A stretch of DNA of 64,000 nt from the NCBI RefSeq assembly GCF_900172265.1, contig NZ_FWFK01000002.1:372001-436000 (forward strand). The letters are read 5' to 3'. This DNA is from Roseivivax jejudonensis. GTDB taxonomy: Bacteria; Pseudomonadota; Alphaproteobacteria; Rhodobacterales; Rhodobacteraceae. This document shows, piece after piece, positions 16,120 through 22,972 of the stretch. How positions within the stretch are numbered: the stretch's first letter is position 1; each line of letters opens with the position of its first letter. The notes beneath the pieces are model-generated. The model saw nothing but the letters and a program-made list of their open reading frames with translations, was not told where the DNA came from and ran no database searches. A program made the position numbers and the translations under genes.

Positions 16120-17664
16120 TCAGCGTGCCTTGAAGAGACCGCCGAGAACGCCGCGCACCAGACGCCGGCCCGTGGTGCCGCCCAGTTCCTTGACCACGGC
16201 GCGGGTCAGCGCCGCACCGAGCGTGTCGCTGCGTCCGCGGGAGGACCGCGTGCCCTGCCGGTCGACACGGCTGCCGGAGTAGCGGCGCGCGGCGCTGTAT
16301 TCGCGCGCCTGCGCCTCGGCGAGGTCCTCCTCGCGTTCCGCGGCCTCGGCCGCAGCGGCCGCAGCCTCGGCCCGCGCACGCAACGCCTCGTAGGCCGAAG
16401 GACGGTCCAGCGCGCGATCGTAGCGCGCGCCGAGCGGCGAAGCGTCGATGACGGCACGCCGCTCGGCAGCCGACAGCGGGCCGAGCCGCGACGAGGGCGG
16501 CCGGATCAGCGTCCGTTCGACAATTCCGGGCACGCCCTTCTTTTGCAGAAACGACGTCACTGCCTCGCCCACGCCGACCTCGAGGATCGCGGCCTCGGTA
16601 TCGAAGGCCGGGTTTTCGCGGTAGGTTTCGGCGGCCAGCTTCAGCGCGCGCTTGTCGCGCGCGGTGAACGCGCGCAGCGCGTGCTGAACCCGGTTTCCCA
16701 GCTGGCCGAGCACGTCCTCCGGCACGTCGTCGGGATTCTGCGTCACGAAGTACACCCCCACGCCCTTGGACCGGATCAGGCGCGCCACCTGCTCCACCTT
16801 CTCCACCAGCGCACGAGGCGCATCCTCGAACAGCAGGTGCGCCTCGTCGAAGAACAACACGAGCCGCGGCTTCTCGGGGTCGCCGACCTCGGGCAGATCC
16901 TCGAATAGCTCGGACATGAGCCACAGAAGGAAGGTCGCGTAGAGCCGCGGCGCCGACATCAGCCTGTTGGCCGCAAGCACGTTGACCATGCCGCGCCCGG
17001 TCGTGTCCGTGCGCATCAGGTCCGCGAGATCGAGCGCGGGTTCTCCGAAGAGCTGCGCGCCGCCCTGCCCCTCGAGGACAAGAAGCCGGCGCTGTATCGC
17101 GCCGACCGACTGCACCGCGATGTTCCCGTAGCGCAGCGACAACTCCGCGCGGTTCTCGCCCACGAAGGTCAGCATTGCCTGCAGATCCTTCAGGTCGAGC
17201 AGCGGCAAGCCCTCCTCGTCGGCGACGCGGAAGGCGACGTTCACGATGCCCTCCTGCGCTTCGGTCAGTTCGAGCATCCGGCTGACGAGAAGCGGGCCCA
17301 TCTCGGCAACTGTCGTGCGGATGGGGTGCCCCTGTTCGCCAAAGAGATCCCAGAACGTGACCGGACACGCGCTGTAGGCATAATCGTCGAATCCGATGGT
17401 GGCCGCCCGCTCCGAGAACGCGCCGTGAAGCTTGTGATCCGCGCTGCCCGGCGCGGCCAGGCCCGACAGGTCGCCCTTCACGTCCGCCAGCACGACCGGC
17501 ACCCCCGCGGCGGAAAAGCCTTCGGTCATGATCTGCAGGGTCACCGTCTTGCCGGTGCCGGTCGCGCCGGCGATCAGCCCGTGCCGGTTTGCGTAGCCGA
17601 GCGCGAGCCGCTGCGGCGTGCCGTATCCGGGGCCGCCGCCACCGATGAAGATCGAGTTGTCCAT
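16120..17664 (-). CDS. HerA-like ATPase, DUF853 family
   Basis: A 514-residue P-loop ATPase of the DUF853 (HerA/YjgR-like) family. It begins MDNSIFIGGGG, has Walker A GATGTGKT at residues 33-40, LADVKGDLSGLA just after, and Walker B in RLVLFFDEAHLLF. The mid part QNPDDVPEDVLGQLGNR is typical. An Ala/Glu/Arg-rich coiled segment near 410-460 leads to a basic, Gly/Arg-rich tail. The family is related to DNA-translocating HerA/FtsK ATPases, but its job is not established. ATG 17664 has GGAG upstream, and a more distal ATG at 17700 is less likely. Confidence 0.87.
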   Translation of the reverse strand: MDNSIFIGGGGPGYGTPQRLALGYANRHGLIAGATGTGKTVTLQIMTEGFSAAGVPVVLADVKGDLSGLAAPGSADHKLHGAFSERAATIGFDDYAYSACPVTFWDLFGEQGHPIRTTVAEMGPLLVSRMLELTEAQEGIVNVAFRVADEEGLPLLDLKDLQAMLTFVGENRAELSLRYGNIAVQSVGAIQRRLLVLEGQGGAQLFGEPALDLADLMRTDTTGRGMVNVLAANRLMSAPRLYATFLLWLMSELFEDLPEVGDPEKPRLVLFFDEAHLLFEDAPRALVEKVEQVARLIRSKGVGVYFVTQNPDDVPEDVLGQLGNRVQHALRAFTARDKRALKLAAETYRENPAFDTEAAILEVGVGEAVTSFLQKKGVPGIVERTLIRPPSSRLGPLSAAERRAVIDASPLGARYDRALDRPSAYEALRARAEAAAAAAEAAEREEDLAEAQAREYSAARRYSGSRVDRQGTRSSRGRSDTLGAALTRAVVKELGGTTGRRLVRGVLGGLFKAR

Positions 17665-17701
17665 GCGTCCGTCTCCGCCGAAAAGTCCAAGATCGACCAT
17701 A

Positions 17702-17727
17702 CTTGCTTAACGAGTCCGCGCCATAAT
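17702..17727 (+). promoter_or_regulatory. possible heat-shock-type promoter for sRNA candidate 1
   Basis: CTTGCTT at 17702-17708 and CCATAAT at 17721-17727 resemble the CTTGaaa / CCCCATnT elements of RpoH promoters. The spacing (15 bases between TTG and CCAT) is about two short of the E. coli ideal. A start about six bases after the -10 falls at 17731-17734, the first base pairs of a 9-bp stem. The match is suggestive only. Confidence 0.3.
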
Positions 17728-17730
17728 CAT

Positions 17731-17811
17731 GTTGTCCGGGCCGCATGTCCTCTTCGGGTCCGGACGACTTCCTCCCTGTCGACTGGCCGCGCCTTCGGGC
17801 GCGGTCTTTTT
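17731..17811 (+). ncRNA. candidate small RNA 1, about 80 nt, ending in an intrinsic terminator
   Basis: Seen directly: a 9-bp stem (17731-17739 with 17760-17768, one G-U pair), an unpaired pyrimidine stretch with TTCCTCCCT (17769-17777), then a perfect 7-bp GC stem capped by TTCG (17787-17793 with 17798-17804) and TCTTTTT. The element lies between divergent herA-like and ialB genes, so no plus-strand protein gene precedes this terminator. The CCTCC segment could pair with Shine-Dalgarno sequences. The 49-codon reading frame through it has no convincing protein character. The interpretation as an sRNA is inference. Confidence 0.5.
17787..17811 (+). terminator. intrinsic terminator of sRNA candidate 1
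   Basis: CCGCGCC, loop TTCG, GGCGCGG, then TCTTTTT. The UUCG tetraloop and U-tract make this a strong rho-independent terminator in the plus direction. Confidence 0.85.
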
Positions 17812-17852
17812 CGTCTGCGCAAGGCGGTCCGGGATCGGCATGATATTGCCTG

Positions 17853-17881
17853 TTGACCGAAAGAAATCACCGTCGTAGCGT
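17853..17881 (+). promoter_or_regulatory. housekeeping-type promoter for sRNA candidate 2
   Basis: TTGACC at 17853-17858 and TAGCGT at 17876-17881 are separated by 17 bases. The -35 matches five of six consensus positions. The -10 is weak, as is common in Rhodobacterales. Initiation would fall near 17888, 90 bases before an intrinsic terminator. Confidence 0.5.
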
Positions 17882-17887
17882 CTGCAC

Positions 17888-17980
17888 CAATGACAAAGTC
17901 GGCCGGTCCGACAGGGAGACAGCGGCCCGGGAAACGGTGCCGCGAGAATGAGAAAAGGAGCCGATACCGGCTCCTTTTTT
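17888..17980 (+). ncRNA. candidate small RNA 2, about 93 nt, ending in an intrinsic terminator
   Basis: The predicted transcript folds into three modules: GTCGG/CCGAC (17898-17902 with 17908-17912), GCGGC/GCCGC (17922-17926 with 17939-17943, with an inner CCG/CGG), and the terminator stem at 17957-17974 with TTTTTT. A TTGAC-type promoter is correctly placed upstream. It follows sRNA candidate 1 in tandem and precedes ialB. A short reading frame from ATG 17891 runs straight through the terminator and is very basic, so coding is unlikely. Confidence 0.52.
17957..17980 (+). terminator. intrinsic terminator of sRNA candidate 2
   Basis: GGAGCCG, loop ATAC, CGGCTCC, followed by TTTTTT and preceded by AAAA. 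The stem is perfect and the U-tract is on the plus strand. In the minus direction it would have only four Ts. Confidence 0.9.
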
Positions 17981-18099
17981 CGTTGTCGGACACCCTCGGC
18001 CGCGCGCGGTCGCAGCACTGTGCAACCGCCCCCTGACACTCCCGTGCGGCCGTGCTATGCGGCTTTCGACCGAAGTGACGACAGAGCTCGGAGGAGCCC

Positions 18100-18756
18100 A
18101 TGACGATCAGACTGACCCATCTTTCCCTCATCGCCGCACTGGCCGCCGCGCCTGCGTTCGCCCAGGACGAGCCGGACGCCGATGCCGGGCAGGACGCGCC
18201 TGCCGCAGAGGGCGCCGAGAACGCGCCCGGCGCAGATCCGGATGTGGGTCTTCAGGGGATGCAGCAGGCCCGCCCCGAAGCCTTCGTGCGCTCGGAAAAC
18301 GGCGACTGGGAGATCCAGTGCATCCGTTTTCCCGACGGGACCGAGGCACAATGCCAGATGTTCCAGCTTCTGACTGCGCAGGACGACAATCCGCTTGCCG
18401 AGGCGTATTTCTTCAAGCCGCCGGAAGGCTCGCAATTCGCGGCCGGGCTCAACCTCGTGGTGCCGCTGCGCACGCTGCTGACCCAGCCGCTGGGTATCGC
18501 CATCGACGGCGGCGCGACGCAGCAGATCCCGTACATGACCTGCTCTGCCGAGGGGTGCGTGGCGCGCGCGGGCATCTCGGAGCAGCAGCTCAACCAGTTC
18601 CGCGCCGGCGCCGCGGCGCGGATCACCATTGTCCCCGCCGATGCTCCGTCCGAGCAGGTGACGACCGACATGTCGCTCTCGGGGTTCACTGCGAGCTTCG
18701 ACGAGCTCGAACCGGCTCAGCTGCCCACACAGCCGAGCCAGGGCACAGGTCAGTAA
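18100..18756 (+). CDS. invasion-associated locus B (IalB) family exported protein
   Basis: A 218-residue exported protein with signal peptide MTIRLTHLSLIAALAAAPAFA. An acidic Ala/Asp/Glu-rich linker (to about residue 55) precedes an IalB-type beta domain (about 60-195), visible in ENGDWEIQCI, QCQMFQLL, LNLVVPLRTLLTQPLGIAIDGG, MTC..EGCVARAGIS and FTASFDEL. In Bartonella IalB is tied to erythrocyte entry. In free-living relatives the role is unknown, probably periplasmic or outer-membrane-linked. A strong GGAGGAG at 18090-18096 sets the start. It is followed by an intrinsic terminator. Confidence 0.88.
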   Translation: MTIRLTHLSLIAALAAAPAFAQDEPDADAGQDAPAAEGAENAPGADPDVGLQGMQQARPEAFVRSENGDWEIQCIRFPDGTEAQCQMFQLLTAQDDNPLAEAYFFKPPEGSQFAAGLNLVVPLRTLLTQPLGIAIDGGATQQIPYMTCSAEGCVARAGISEQQLNQFRAGAAARITIVPADAPSEQVTTDMSLSGFTASFDELEPAQLPTQPSQGTGQ

Positions 18757-19771: not shown

Positions 19772-20035
19772 TCAGCCGCGCGCCGCGGGAAGCTCGATAT
19801 TGATCTCGAGGCTCGACTGCCCCTCGCCGCGTTCCATCTGGATATCAACCGCATCGTCGTCGATCTTCATGTGACGCTTTATGACCGCGAGGATGTCACG
19901 CTGCAGCTCGGGAAAGACGTCCGGCCCCGGACCGCCGGCGCGCTCGTGCGCCAGAAGCACCTGGAGCCGTTCCTTGGCCGCTCGGGCCGAGGGATCCTGC
20001 TTGCGGGTCCAGCGGGGAAAACCGAAGCGCATCAT
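19772..20035 (-). CDS. minE: cell division topological specificity factor MinE
   Basis: MinE stimulates MinD ATPase activity at the membrane and drives the pole-to-pole oscillation that keeps the Z-ring at midcell. The 87-residue protein shows the MinD-interacting region AKERLQVLLAHER (about 19-31) and the topological domain with LQRDILAVIKRHMKID (about 44-59). Its ATG overlaps the TGA of minD as ATGA (20032-20035), so translation is coupled. It is the last gene of minC-minD-minE. Confidence 0.95.
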   Translation of the reverse strand: MMRFGFPRWTRKQDPSARAAKERLQVLLAHERAGGPGPDVFPELQRDILAVIKRHMKIDDDAVDIQMERGEGQSSLEINIELPAARG

Positions 20036-20862
20036 GCCGTCCGCCCGAAGAGCCGCTGCATGAAGCCGCGCGGGCGGTCGGATTCCAGCCGGACCTCGAG
20101 ATCCTCGCCATCGAGCCGCGCGGCCGCGGCTTCGTAGGCGCGGCTCGCAGCCGACGGCTCGTCGAGCACGACCGGCATCCCGAGGTTCGACGCACGCAGC
20201 ACGGCCTTGCTTTCTGGAACAATGCCCAGAAGCGGCACCGCGAGGATCTCTAGCACATCCTCGACCGTCATCATTTCGCCCGTGTCGATCCGCGCCTGAT
20301 CGTGACGCGTAAGCAGGACCTGCGCCTTCACCGCCTCGCCCTTCTCGGCGCGATCGGTCTTGGCCTGCAGGAGGCCCAGCACACGGTCGCTGTCGCGGAC
20401 CGACGACACCTCGGGGTTCGTCACCACGACCGCCTCGTCGGCAAAGTGCATGGCAAGCTGCGCGCCACGCTCGATGCCCGCCGGGCTGTCGCAGATGATG
20501 TAGTCGAAGCTCTCGCGCAGCTCCGACAGGACCGACTCGACGCCTTCCTTGGTCAGGGCGTCCTTGTCGCGGGTCTGCGATGTCGGCAGCACCGACAGCG
20601 TCTCGATCCGCTTGTCGCGGATCAGGGCCTGCGACAGCTTGGCGTCGCCCTGGATGACGTTGATGAAGTCGAACACGACCCGGCGCTCCACGCCCATGAT
20701 CATGTCGAGGTTGCGCAGGCCGACGTCGAAGTCGATCACCACCGTCTTGTGACCGCGCTGCGCCAGCGCGGCGCCGATCGCGGCAGCCGATGTGGTCTTG
20801 CCCACGCCGCCCTTGCCGGAGGTCACCACGATGACCTTGCCCGCCTTCCTGTCCTGTTCCAC
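20032..20862 (-). CDS. minD: septum site-determining ATPase MinD
   Basis: MinD is the membrane-cycling ParA/MinD ATPase that recruits MinC and responds to MinE. The deviant Walker A SGKGGVGKTT (about 15-24) follows KVIVVT, and DFDVGLRNLDMIMG and CDSPAGIERGA are the switch regions. The C-terminal RGFMQRLFGRTA forms the amphipathic membrane-targeting helix. The start is taken as GTG 20862 because AAGGAG lies six bases upstream. The upstream in-frame ATG at 20889 has no comparable site. The 276-residue length matches the family. Confidence 0.95.
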   Translation of the reverse strand: MEQDRKAGKVIVVTSGKGGVGKTTSAAAIGAALAQRGHKTVVIDFDVGLRNLDMIMGVERRVVFDFINVIQGDAKLSQALIRDKRIETLSVLPTSQTRDKDALTKEGVESVLSELRESFDYIICDSPAGIERGAQLAMHFADEAVVVTNPEVSSVRDSDRVLGLLQAKTDRAEKGEAVKAQVLLTRHDQARIDTGEMMTVEDVLEILAVPLLGIVPESKAVLRASNLGMPVVLDEPSAASRAYEAAAARLDGEDLEVRLESDRPRGFMQRLFGRTA

Positions 20863-20868
20863 GGCGCT

Positions 20869-20874
20869 CTCCTT
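20869..20874 (-). promoter_or_regulatory. ribosome binding site deciding the minD GTG start
   Basis: AAGGAG on the minus strand ends six bases before the GTG at 20862. This placement, together with the expected MinD length, favours GTG over the upstream ATG at 20889. Confidence 0.8.
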
Positions 20875-20897
20875 TCCGTTCGGTCTCATCAATTGCG

Positions 20898-21641
20898 TCA
20901 GTCCAGCAGGTGCATCTGCAGACTGTCGTCCTCGAGCGCGACCATGACCTGCTGGCCGCGCACCGCGTCGTCGAAATTGTCGGGCGTGCGGTAGCGCCCG
21001 GCGATCGCCACCAGCTCGGCATCGAGCCGGCGGCAGAAGATCCGCGCGCTTTCGTCGCCGTGGACACCGGCCATCGCCCGACCGCGCATCCGGCCGTAGA
21101 CGTGGATATGCCCCGCGGCGATCAGCTCGGCGCCCGAACTCACGGGGCCGACCACGGTGAGGTCGCCGCCATCGGCGACGACCACCTGCCCCGACCGCAC
21201 CGGTGTCGTCACCAGCCGGTTCGCCGGCGCGAGCGGAGCGCGTTTGCCGCCGCGGCGCGGCCCCGGCTTGCCGAGCGGCCCGTCCTGGCCGGCGTCGATG
21301 CTCAGAAGCCCTTCTTCCGCGGCAAGCTCGGCCAGCCGCCCGTGCGCGTGCAGCACGCCGAACGGCATCATCCGCCGCGCGCGCAACTCGCGCAGAAGCC
21401 GCGAGAGATCGGCATCCCCGAGCCGCGCGCCCGCGTCCTCGAGGTCGATCAGCATCGGCGCCTTTTCGAAGAATTGCGGCGTCTGCCGCAGATGCTCGTC
21501 GAGCGCCTCGAGAAAGGCCGCGTCGACGGGGCCGTTGCCCGGGCGCAGCGTCACCGCGGTAAAGTATCGCCCGCGGAACTGGAAAGGCGCGACGCGCGTC
21601 GTCGCCGGGCGACCGGCGGTCGCCTGTGGGGTGTCGGGCAC
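20898..21641 (-). CDS. minC: septum site-determining protein MinC
   Basis: MinC inhibits FtsZ polymerisation when brought to the membrane by MinD. The N-terminal FtsZ-inhibitory domain spans about residues 18-115. After a basic linker near 125-145, the C-terminal beta-helix (150-247) has the characteristic RSGQVVVADGGDLTVVGPV and AAGHIHVYGRMRGRAMAG. The start GTG at 21641 is preceded by AAGGAC. It leads the minCDE operon. The gap to minD is 35 bases. Confidence 0.93.
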   Translation of the reverse strand: MPDTPQATAGRPATTRVAPFQFRGRYFTAVTLRPGNGPVDAAFLEALDEHLRQTPQFFEKAPMLIDLEDAGARLGDADLSRLLRELRARRMMPFGVLHAHGRLAELAAEEGLLSIDAGQDGPLGKPGPRRGGKRAPLAPANRLVTTPVRSGQVVVADGGDLTVVGPVSSGAELIAAGHIHVYGRMRGRAMAGVHGDESARIFCRRLDAELVAIAGRYRTPDNFDDAVRGQQVMVALEDDSLQMHLLD

Positions 21642-21796
21642 GGGGGCTCGGTCCTTGCTGCTCGTGTGCCGGCGACTCGCGCAATCGGTCGCCGTTACGC
21701 GCGGGCGTAGCGTCTCGCGCGCGCGATGGCCACCCCGTCCGCGACGGCACGCCGCATCTCGGCAGGATGCTGCTTTCGGTTGAGCGGCAGGGCGCC

Positions 21797-22972
21797 TCAG
21801 TCCCGCCGGTTTGCGCGTGCGAGTCCGCGAAGGATCGCATCGGCGGCGCGGCGCCCCTGCGGAGGACCGTCGCGACCGAGGCGCTGCATCGTCGTTTCCA
21901 TCGCTCGGGCCTGCGCCTGCGGCGCGTCGAGCACCTTCAACAGCGCGGGCGCGATCCGGTCCGGGCGGCAGGCCTTGCCGATGAACTCGGGCACCGCGCG
22001 GGTCTCCGACACGAGGTTTACGAGCGTCACGGTGTCGGTGCGGAGCATCCGGCCGATGATCTGCCGCGACAGCCAGTTCATGTCGTAGGCGATCACCATC
22101 GGTGTCGCCGCCGCCGCGAGCTCCAGCGACACCGTGCCGGAGGCCGCGAGCGCGACATCCGCGGCAGCAAAGGCCGCCCGCTTCTCGGGTTGTGCCGCCG
22201 GGCCCAGACCGCGCGGATCGAGCACGACCGGCGCGCCGGGCCAGTCCGCGGCCTGCGCCTCGACCGCGGCCGCGACGGCCGGTGCCGCCGGCACCACGAA
22301 GCGCAGGTCCGGCCGCGCCGCATGTACCTGCTCCAGCACCTCGCCGAAGACGGGACCCAGCCGGGCGACCTCGGAGCGGCGCGAGCCCGGCAGGATCAGC
22401 GCCAGCGGCGCCTCGCCGAGCCCATGCGTCAGGCGGAAGCGCGCCACGTCTGCGGCCCCGGCCACCGGCTCGCTGACCACGGGATGACCCACGAAATCGC
22501 ATTCCATCCCGGCGGCTTCCATGAACGGCGGCTCGAACGGCAGGAGCGCGAGCACCTGGTCCACGTGTGGCGCCATCTTTGCCGCGCGACCCGGCCGCCA
22601 GGCCCAGACCGTCGGCGCGACATAGTGCACCGTCCGCAGGTTCGGCGACCGCTCGCGCACGATCTTCAGGACCCGGAGCGAGAATTCCGGCAGGTCCACG
22701 GTGATGACGACATCGGGCTGCGCGGCAATCGCGGCTTCCGCGGTCTCGCGGATACGCCGCTTGAGCGCGCGATACTCCGACAGGATCTCGACGATCCCCA
22801 TGATCGAGATCTCGTCCATCGGAAAGAGCGACACGAGCCCCTGCTCTTCCATCAGCGGACCGCCGACACCGGTGAAGGTGACGCCGTCGCCCACGGCATC
22901 GCGCAGGCCCGCCATCAGCGCGGCGCCAAGGCGGTCGCCCGAAGGTTCGCCGGCAGTGATGAAAACCCGCAT
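21797..22972 (-). CDS. lpxB: lipid-A-disaccharide synthase
   Basis: LpxB joins UDP-2,3-diacylglucosamine and lipid X to form the lipid A disaccharide. The 391-residue protein starts MRVFITAGEPSGDRLGA. It has the family features GVGGPLM, IMGIVEIL, DLPEFSLRV, YVAPTVWAWRPGR, FVGHPV, LPGSRRSEV and the C-terminal ASGTVSLELA. Its ATG overlaps the TGA of lpxI by one base (TGATG). It is the last gene of the fabZ-lpxA-lpxI-lpxB group. LpxD is not encoded in this run. Confidence 0.96.
   Translation of the reverse strand: MRVFITAGEPSGDRLGAALMAGLRDAVGDGVTFTGVGGPLMEEQGLVSLFPMDEISIMGIVEILSEYRALKRRIRETAEAAIAAQPDVVITVDLPEFSLRVLKIVRERSPNLRTVHYVAPTVWAWRPGRAAKMAPHVDQVLALLPFEPPFMEAAGMECDFVGHPVVSEPVAGAADVARFRLTHGLGEAPLALILPGSRRSEVARLGPVFGEVLEQVHAARPDLRFVVPAAPAVAAAVEAQAADWPGAPVVLDPRGLGPAAQPEKRAAFAAADVALAASGTVSLELAAAATPMVIAYDMNWLSRQIIGRMLRTDTVTLVNLVSETRAVPEFIGKACRPDRIAPALLKVLDAPQAQARAMETTMQRLGRDGPPQGRRAADAILRGLARANRRD

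Follow-up and report, generated by a model that had tools for sequence, protein, structure and literature searches.

A conserved tandem pair of small RNA genes between herA and ialB of Rhodobacteraceae, with a putative sponge for anti-Shine-Dalgarno sRNAs of the SorX/SorY type

In Roseivivax jejudonensis, the divergent genes for a herA-like ATPase and for an ialB relative are separated by a gap that carries two intrinsic terminators on the plus strand, and no plus-strand protein gene lies upstream of either, which raises the question of what is transcribed and terminated there. Direct reading of the gap within the window, i.e., the whole stretch of 64,000 nt analyzed here (GCF_900172265.1, contig NZ_FWFK01000002.1, 372,001-436,000 of the forward strand), bore out this arrangement, to which a sequence-only reading had drawn attention, and confirmed that the plus strand carries two transcription units with separate promoters and terminators (Table 1). 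The suggestion of the same reading that these units encode a pair of regulatory RNAs, here called RNA1 and RNA2, is supported, since both units, promoter, terminator and tandem order are kept across the Rhodobacteraceae. We regard it as probable, at roughly 0.6, that RNA1 is an anti-Shine-Dalgarno sRNA and that RNA2 is a sponge for RNA1 and its siblings SorX and SorY. Rfam, used at its cut-offs, gave no matches in the window or in eight related loci. Downstream of the pair, the list of open reading frames contains MinC/MinD/MinE-like frames on the minus strand (19772-21840).

Table 1. Features of the herA-ialB region, in window coordinates
Feature	Position	Strand	Evidence
herA-like ATPase gene	16120..17700	-	PF05872, E 2.9e-219
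Putative RNA1 promoter region	17702..17733	+	position counts over 65 loci
RNA1, putative anti-Shine-Dalgarno sRNA, SorX/alphaR8 type	17733..17812 (approx.)	+	fold, SorX model, conservation
RNA1 segment CTCCCTGTCGACTGGCCG, complementary to RNA2	17772..17789	+	duplex energies, 120 loci
RNA1 intrinsic terminator	17785..17811	+	terminator scan, fold, conserved stem
RNA2 promoter TTGACC-N17-TAGCGT, housekeeping sigma-70 type	17853..17881	+	conserved spacing and boxes
RNA2, putative sponge RNA	17888..17983 (approx.)	+	covariance model, fold z -5.0
RNA2 pairing element CGGCCGGTCCGACAGGGAG	17900..17918	+	complementary to RNA1, SorX, SorY
RNA2 intrinsic terminator, U6 tail	17948..17983	+	fold; paired positions changed on both sides
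Separate ialB promoter CTGACA-N17-TATGCG, TGC before -10	18033..18061	+	downstream of RNA2 terminator
ialB gene	18100..18756	+	PF06776, E 3.7e-30

The fold of RNA1, whose start site is a predicted one, consists of a 12-bp 5' hairpin, the single-stranded stretch CUUCCUCCCUGU (17768-17779) and a terminator in which the scan recognized a stem of 9 pairs (17785-17806) with a UUCG loop and a T tail. None of 200 shuffled sequences folded as well as positions 17730-17814 (z = -4.4). Of 120 loci, 113 have a predicted 5' hairpin with 6 bp or more, and over all of them the region around CCUCCC was mostly unpaired (mean probability 0.86); together with the resemblance to SorX and alphaR8, this unpaired stretch supports the anti-Shine-Dalgarno role that had been proposed for RNA1 from the window. 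A DNA search with one genome per genus of the family matched RNA1 in 100 of 149 genomes. Relatives of herA and ialB flank RNA1 in 28 of the 30 loci whose flanks were checked (L003-L032); within reach, one locus (L011) had no ialB match and another (L013) no herA match. The loop of the 5' hairpin (17744-17753) often reads CAUGUCCUCU in relatives and might be a second pairing site. At the locus of Rhodobacter sphaeroides (L038, G051:C4:1424000-1429500), RNA1 does not adjoin herA; read by eye, the reading frame upstream of it is catalase-like, with an OxyR-like LysR gene further away. The RNA1 core differs there (CUCCCUGAACUGGACUGGCC), and the pairing with RNA2 is nonetheless kept.

In the putative promoter region of RNA1, CTTAAC(G) (17706-17712) and GCCA (17720-17723) are conserved, and the conserved element, CTTAACC-N6-TGCCA, overlaps the promoter of the divergent herA, which is of the type CTGGCA-N17-TATGTT and on the minus strand. 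TTAA(CC) in this element (17706-17727 region) is nearly invariant in the aligned loci, more so than the -35 and -10 elements, and in its position between the herA and RNA1 promoters we take it to resemble a CtrA half-site. The boxes previously named as the RNA1 promoter, CTTG (17702-17705) and CCATAAT (17721-17727), are both present, but CTTG as a -35 element was found in one of 114 loci, namely in this window itself. The idea that RNA1 is under heat-shock control is therefore not supported and was set aside.

Several known sRNAs resemble RNA1. SorX (RF02784) and SorY (RF02651) of R. sphaeroides share its architecture and the core CUCCCUGU-NGAC, but they are encoded at different loci, and the SorX model recognizes RNA1 only weakly, with 32.0 bits over positions 1-73 against a gathering cut-off of 46.6 bits; the RNA1 loci of other genera score about 25-41 bits. 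All 31 genomes searched contain matches to the SorX model, which exceed the cut-off in 29. In this genome, the true SorX scores 76 bits at C16:242958, whereas RNA1 adjoins the divergent herA, and a SorY-type gene lies at C14:472121. The alphaR8/MmgR family (RF00519, 'suhB') likewise combines a hairpin with an unpaired (U)UUCCUCCCU core before the terminator; RNA1 differs from it by its strong 5' hairpin and by its neighbors, herA and ialB in place of the FGase gene. With a cut-off of 41 bits, the alphaR8/MmgR model gave 19.5 bits in the window and at best 33.4 bits in a relative, and it stayed below the cut-off in 16 of 16 genomes searched. The unpaired alphaR8 10-mer UUUCCUCCCU is represented in the window by CUUCCUCCCU (9 of 10 positions) and is exact in several relatives (e.g., L098, L139, and L112). 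Since SorX is located elsewhere in the genome and the scores of RNA1 with the SorX and alphaR8 models are below the cut-offs, RNA1 is taken as a further sibling of the SorX/alphaR8 class; it is a separate gene and not SorX itself. Contig 4 of genome G051, on which PuhA matches at 100%, is presumably chromosome 1 of R. sphaeroides. The published positions of SorX and SorY, 2,598,224 and 1,632,642 (PMC6238624), coincide with SorX- and SorY-type matches on this contig. Two SorX copies stand in tandem in another genome (G148:C3:795407-795620), and a fourth site with the sibling motif was seen in a further one (G070:C8:22654).

The genome of R. jejudonensis contains 20 ribosome-binding sites that match GACAGGGAGGAA with at most one mismatch, compared with 12 for the control. 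They include sites of DctP-type, SBP_bac_8-type and TctC-like binding proteins, the TctC-like one being below Pfam's cut-off, and of a globin. Since the number exceeds the control only modestly, these sites may serve as a lead to RNA1 targets, not as proof.

The fold of RNA2 in the window comprises, in order, a hairpin of 5 bp, a middle hairpin and a terminator whose tail has six Us (17887-17983, z = -5.0; 0 of 200 shuffles as good). The terminator, a near-perfect hairpin by folding, is missing from the simple terminator scan. The sequence-only reading had described this unit as 93 nt with three hairpins, and the terminator and the hairpins are indeed there, but the middle hairpin turned out to be an insertion of this genome; the RNA2 of relatives has two hairpins and about 68 nt. 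The promoter claimed for RNA2 is present as described and conserved: over 120 loci, the spacing is 17 in 118, the -35 box is TTGACC or TTGACG in 117 and the -10 box is TAGCGT or TAACGT in 94. RNA1 and RNA2 stand in tandem, in the same order and orientation, in 120 distinct aligned loci from different genera, with a median of 134.5 nt between CCTCCC and the GTCGG of RNA2, and RNA2 lies downstream of RNA1 in all of L003-L032 but L011. Ruegeria, Leisingera, Tritonibacter, Marivita, and Sagittula are among the genera that have the RNA2 core downstream of an RNA1 model match. The expected conservation among relatives was also seen with the covariance model of RNA2, which matched in 370 of 395 Rhodobacteraceae genomes; among 289 genomes of the class, strong matches were confined to 4 that belong to the Rhodobacteraceae, and none in the other 285 was credible. 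Weak matches outside the family (L206-L208) were rejected, being without the core motif, and pattern matches in Actinomadura and Ancylobacter (L287, L312) are taken as chance because they reach 19 and 30 bits over only 38-39 nt. A search of IMG/VR with one exact 22-nt form gave no match. In R. sphaeroides, RNA2 occupies about 1,426,530-1,426,606, and the transcript of either RNA may already stand in earlier sRNA catalogs of this species.

Almost all of the first loci have RNA2 upstream of ialB and oriented like it, as would be expected if RNA2 were an attenuator-bearing 5' leader of ialB instead of a free sRNA, with RNA1 controlling ialB through this leader; UpsM of R. sphaeroides is such a leader-derived sRNA (PMC5089854). 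We consider this quite unlikely, given the strong terminators and a promoter-like motif, CTGACA...TGNTA, which precedes ialB downstream of the RNA2 terminator in 101 of 120 loci. Either reading, leader or sponge, would leave room for the other.

The main point beyond the earlier reading is the complementarity of RNA2 to RNA1, SorX, and SorY, which extends over 17-19 nt. The RNA2 sequence CGGCCRGUCCGACAGGGAG is the reverse complement of CUCCCUGUC(N)GACUGGCCG in RNA1, with one bulged or mismatched position. The median energy of the RNA1-RNA2 core duplex over 120 loci was -36.8 kcal/mol, compared with about -15.7 for shuffled segments; for SorX and RNA2 it was -38.2 kcal/mol in 28 genomes, and SorY and RNA2 gave -39.7 kcal/mol in this genome and -38.9 in R. 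sphaeroides. When the cost of unfolding was included, the whole RNAs of this genome bound RNA2 with -20.7 (RNA1), -22.3 (SorX), and -22.4 kcal/mol (SorY); with RNA2 shuffled, the means were -7.8 to -10.0 kcal/mol. The margin was smaller in R. sphaeroides, where some shuffled controls bound as well as the real pairs. The pairing element of RNA2 is partly enclosed in the 5-bp hairpin (17898-17902 with 17908-17912), which is kept in 30 of 30 aligned sequences, and the GGGA stretch is only partly accessible when RNA2 is alone (mean unpaired 0.58). Cognate RNA1 and RNA2 paired better on average than in 5000 of 5000 re-pairings between genera, an effect that is small (0.33 kcal/mol) and comes from a permutation that ignores shared ancestry. 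Compensatory changes are clear in three loci (L009, L031, and L177) and partial in L138, compared with one-sided departures from the pairing consensus in 29 of 120. The motif CCTCCCTGTYN(0-1)GAC occurred at 32 sites in 10 genomes, against one for the reversed control, and at exactly three sites in this genome, i.e., in RNA1, SorY, and SorX (control 0). The antisense strand of the SorY-type gene gave a match to the RNA2 model as well, with 22 bits (L085:313-385, corresponding to G000:C14:472112-472184, minus strand), which may be read as a further sign of complementarity.

As CUCCCU and AGGGAG are generic and occur in many anti-Shine-Dalgarno sRNAs and mRNAs, RNA1 and RNA2 might share nothing but a Shine-Dalgarno/anti-Shine-Dalgarno motif and not act on each other. 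This is improbable in our view, since the pairing runs through GACUGGCC/GGCCAGUC, past any Shine-Dalgarno sequence, and is kept across 120 loci, with some compensatory changes and a sibling motif that is near-exclusive in this genome. The pairing of RNA1 with RNA2 across the Rhodobacteraceae looks real.

One sRNA pairing with another is also the situation of StsR and UpsM in R. sphaeroides. StsR, an RpoHI/RpoHII-dependent sRNA, has 72 nt, is stress-induced and binds another sRNA (PMC8307010), properties that would suit RNA1, with RNA2 in the role of UpsM. The RNA1 of R. sphaeroides is, however, found at 1.4267 Mb. The RSs numbering seems to be positional, with UpsM (RSs0682, about 0.695 Mb) and SorX (2.598 Mb, which we take to be RSs2461) as anchors, and it would place StsR (RSs0827) near 0.84-0.88 Mb, far from RNA1; no RNA1-like match was detected in the 828-888 kb region. 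UpsM is an mraZ leader, and none of the mraZ leaders of 30 genomes contained the RNA2 motif, so RNA2 was rejected as UpsM. RNA1 was set aside as StsR on position only, with the place of StsR deduced from the numbering. Identity of the two pairs is very improbable.

In the sponge mechanism that we propose, RNA1, a sibling of the SorX and SorY encoded elsewhere in the genome, would act in trans, its unpaired CUUCCUCCCUGU blocking ACAGGGAGGAA-type ribosome-binding sites. RNA2 would be made from its own housekeeping-type promoter directly downstream of RNA1 and would offer the ribosome-binding-site mimic GACAGGGAG, lengthened by GGCCRGUC as a second pairing arm. RNA1, SorX, and SorY would be sequestered, or decay faster, once paired with RNA2 along about 17-19 nt, and RNA2 would in this way set a threshold below which the siblings would not repress their mRNAs, those of transporters among them. 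Both RNAs are presumed to be expressed and to depend on Hfq, and in this mechanism RNA2 would be the inhibitor of the siblings and not a target under their control.

Pairing alone gives no direction, and the siblings could be sponges that titrate RNA2, which would then be the principal regulator, with RNAs that contain CUCCCU, or others, as its targets. The strong, constitutive-type promoter of RNA2 would suit this role, as would its wider spread compared with the adjacent RNA1: about eight RNA2 loci (L125, L136, L155, L159, L161, L168, L169, and L179) have no credible RNA1 within about 500 nt upstream. The retention of RNA2 where RNA1 is absent nearby fits a sponge of several siblings as well. 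Such a reversal of roles appears unlikely, if worth bearing in mind, since SorX and SorY have known mRNA targets, namely potA (PMC9438474) and takP (PMC6238624), so that the siblings act on mRNAs, and since the conserved part of RNA2 looks like a ribosome-binding site, i.e., the target of the siblings.

A sponge of comparable design was described in 2025 in Caulobacter crescentus, where CrfA, induced by carbon starvation, pairs through its second stem-loop (nt 49-63) with the alphaR8 siblings SisA-D and lowers SisA (PMC12559287). QrrX, too, has a family of sibling sRNAs as its target (PMC12559287); by their description in the literature, QrrX, SroC, AsxR, and AgvB of other organisms are antagonists of sRNAs, the role proposed here for RNA2. 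CrfA and RNA2 have in common a G/A-rich segment complementary to the anti-Shine-Dalgarno core UUUCCUCCCU of a sibling family, and SisA-D, like RNA1, SorX, and SorY, are siblings at different loci with unrelated promoters. RNA2 shows the feature by which the CrfA-type class is recognized, a long complementarity that takes in the core of every member of a sibling family. It departs from CrfA in its housekeeping-type promoter, in a longer pairing stretch situated close to the 5' end and in its tandem arrangement with one sibling; the likeness is one of description, and the RNA2 model has no credible match outside the Rhodobacteraceae. It is possible, with chances slightly below even, that RNA2 is a near-universal hub sponge of the Rhodobacteraceae which is constitutive, stands in tandem with one client, jointly buffers at least three anti-Shine-Dalgarno sRNAs and arose independently of CrfA.

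SorX and SorY are established sRNAs of the singlet-oxygen and oxidative stress responses of R. sphaeroides. RNA2, with its complementarity to both and to the adjoining RNA1, would offer a single missing control point for this stress network, in a large family that comprises phototrophs and marine bacteria. It also allows a direct check on how general the CrfA/Sis design of Caulobacter is and, if the sponge reading is true, sponge control of alphaR8-like siblings would be a recurrent design in Alphaproteobacteria.
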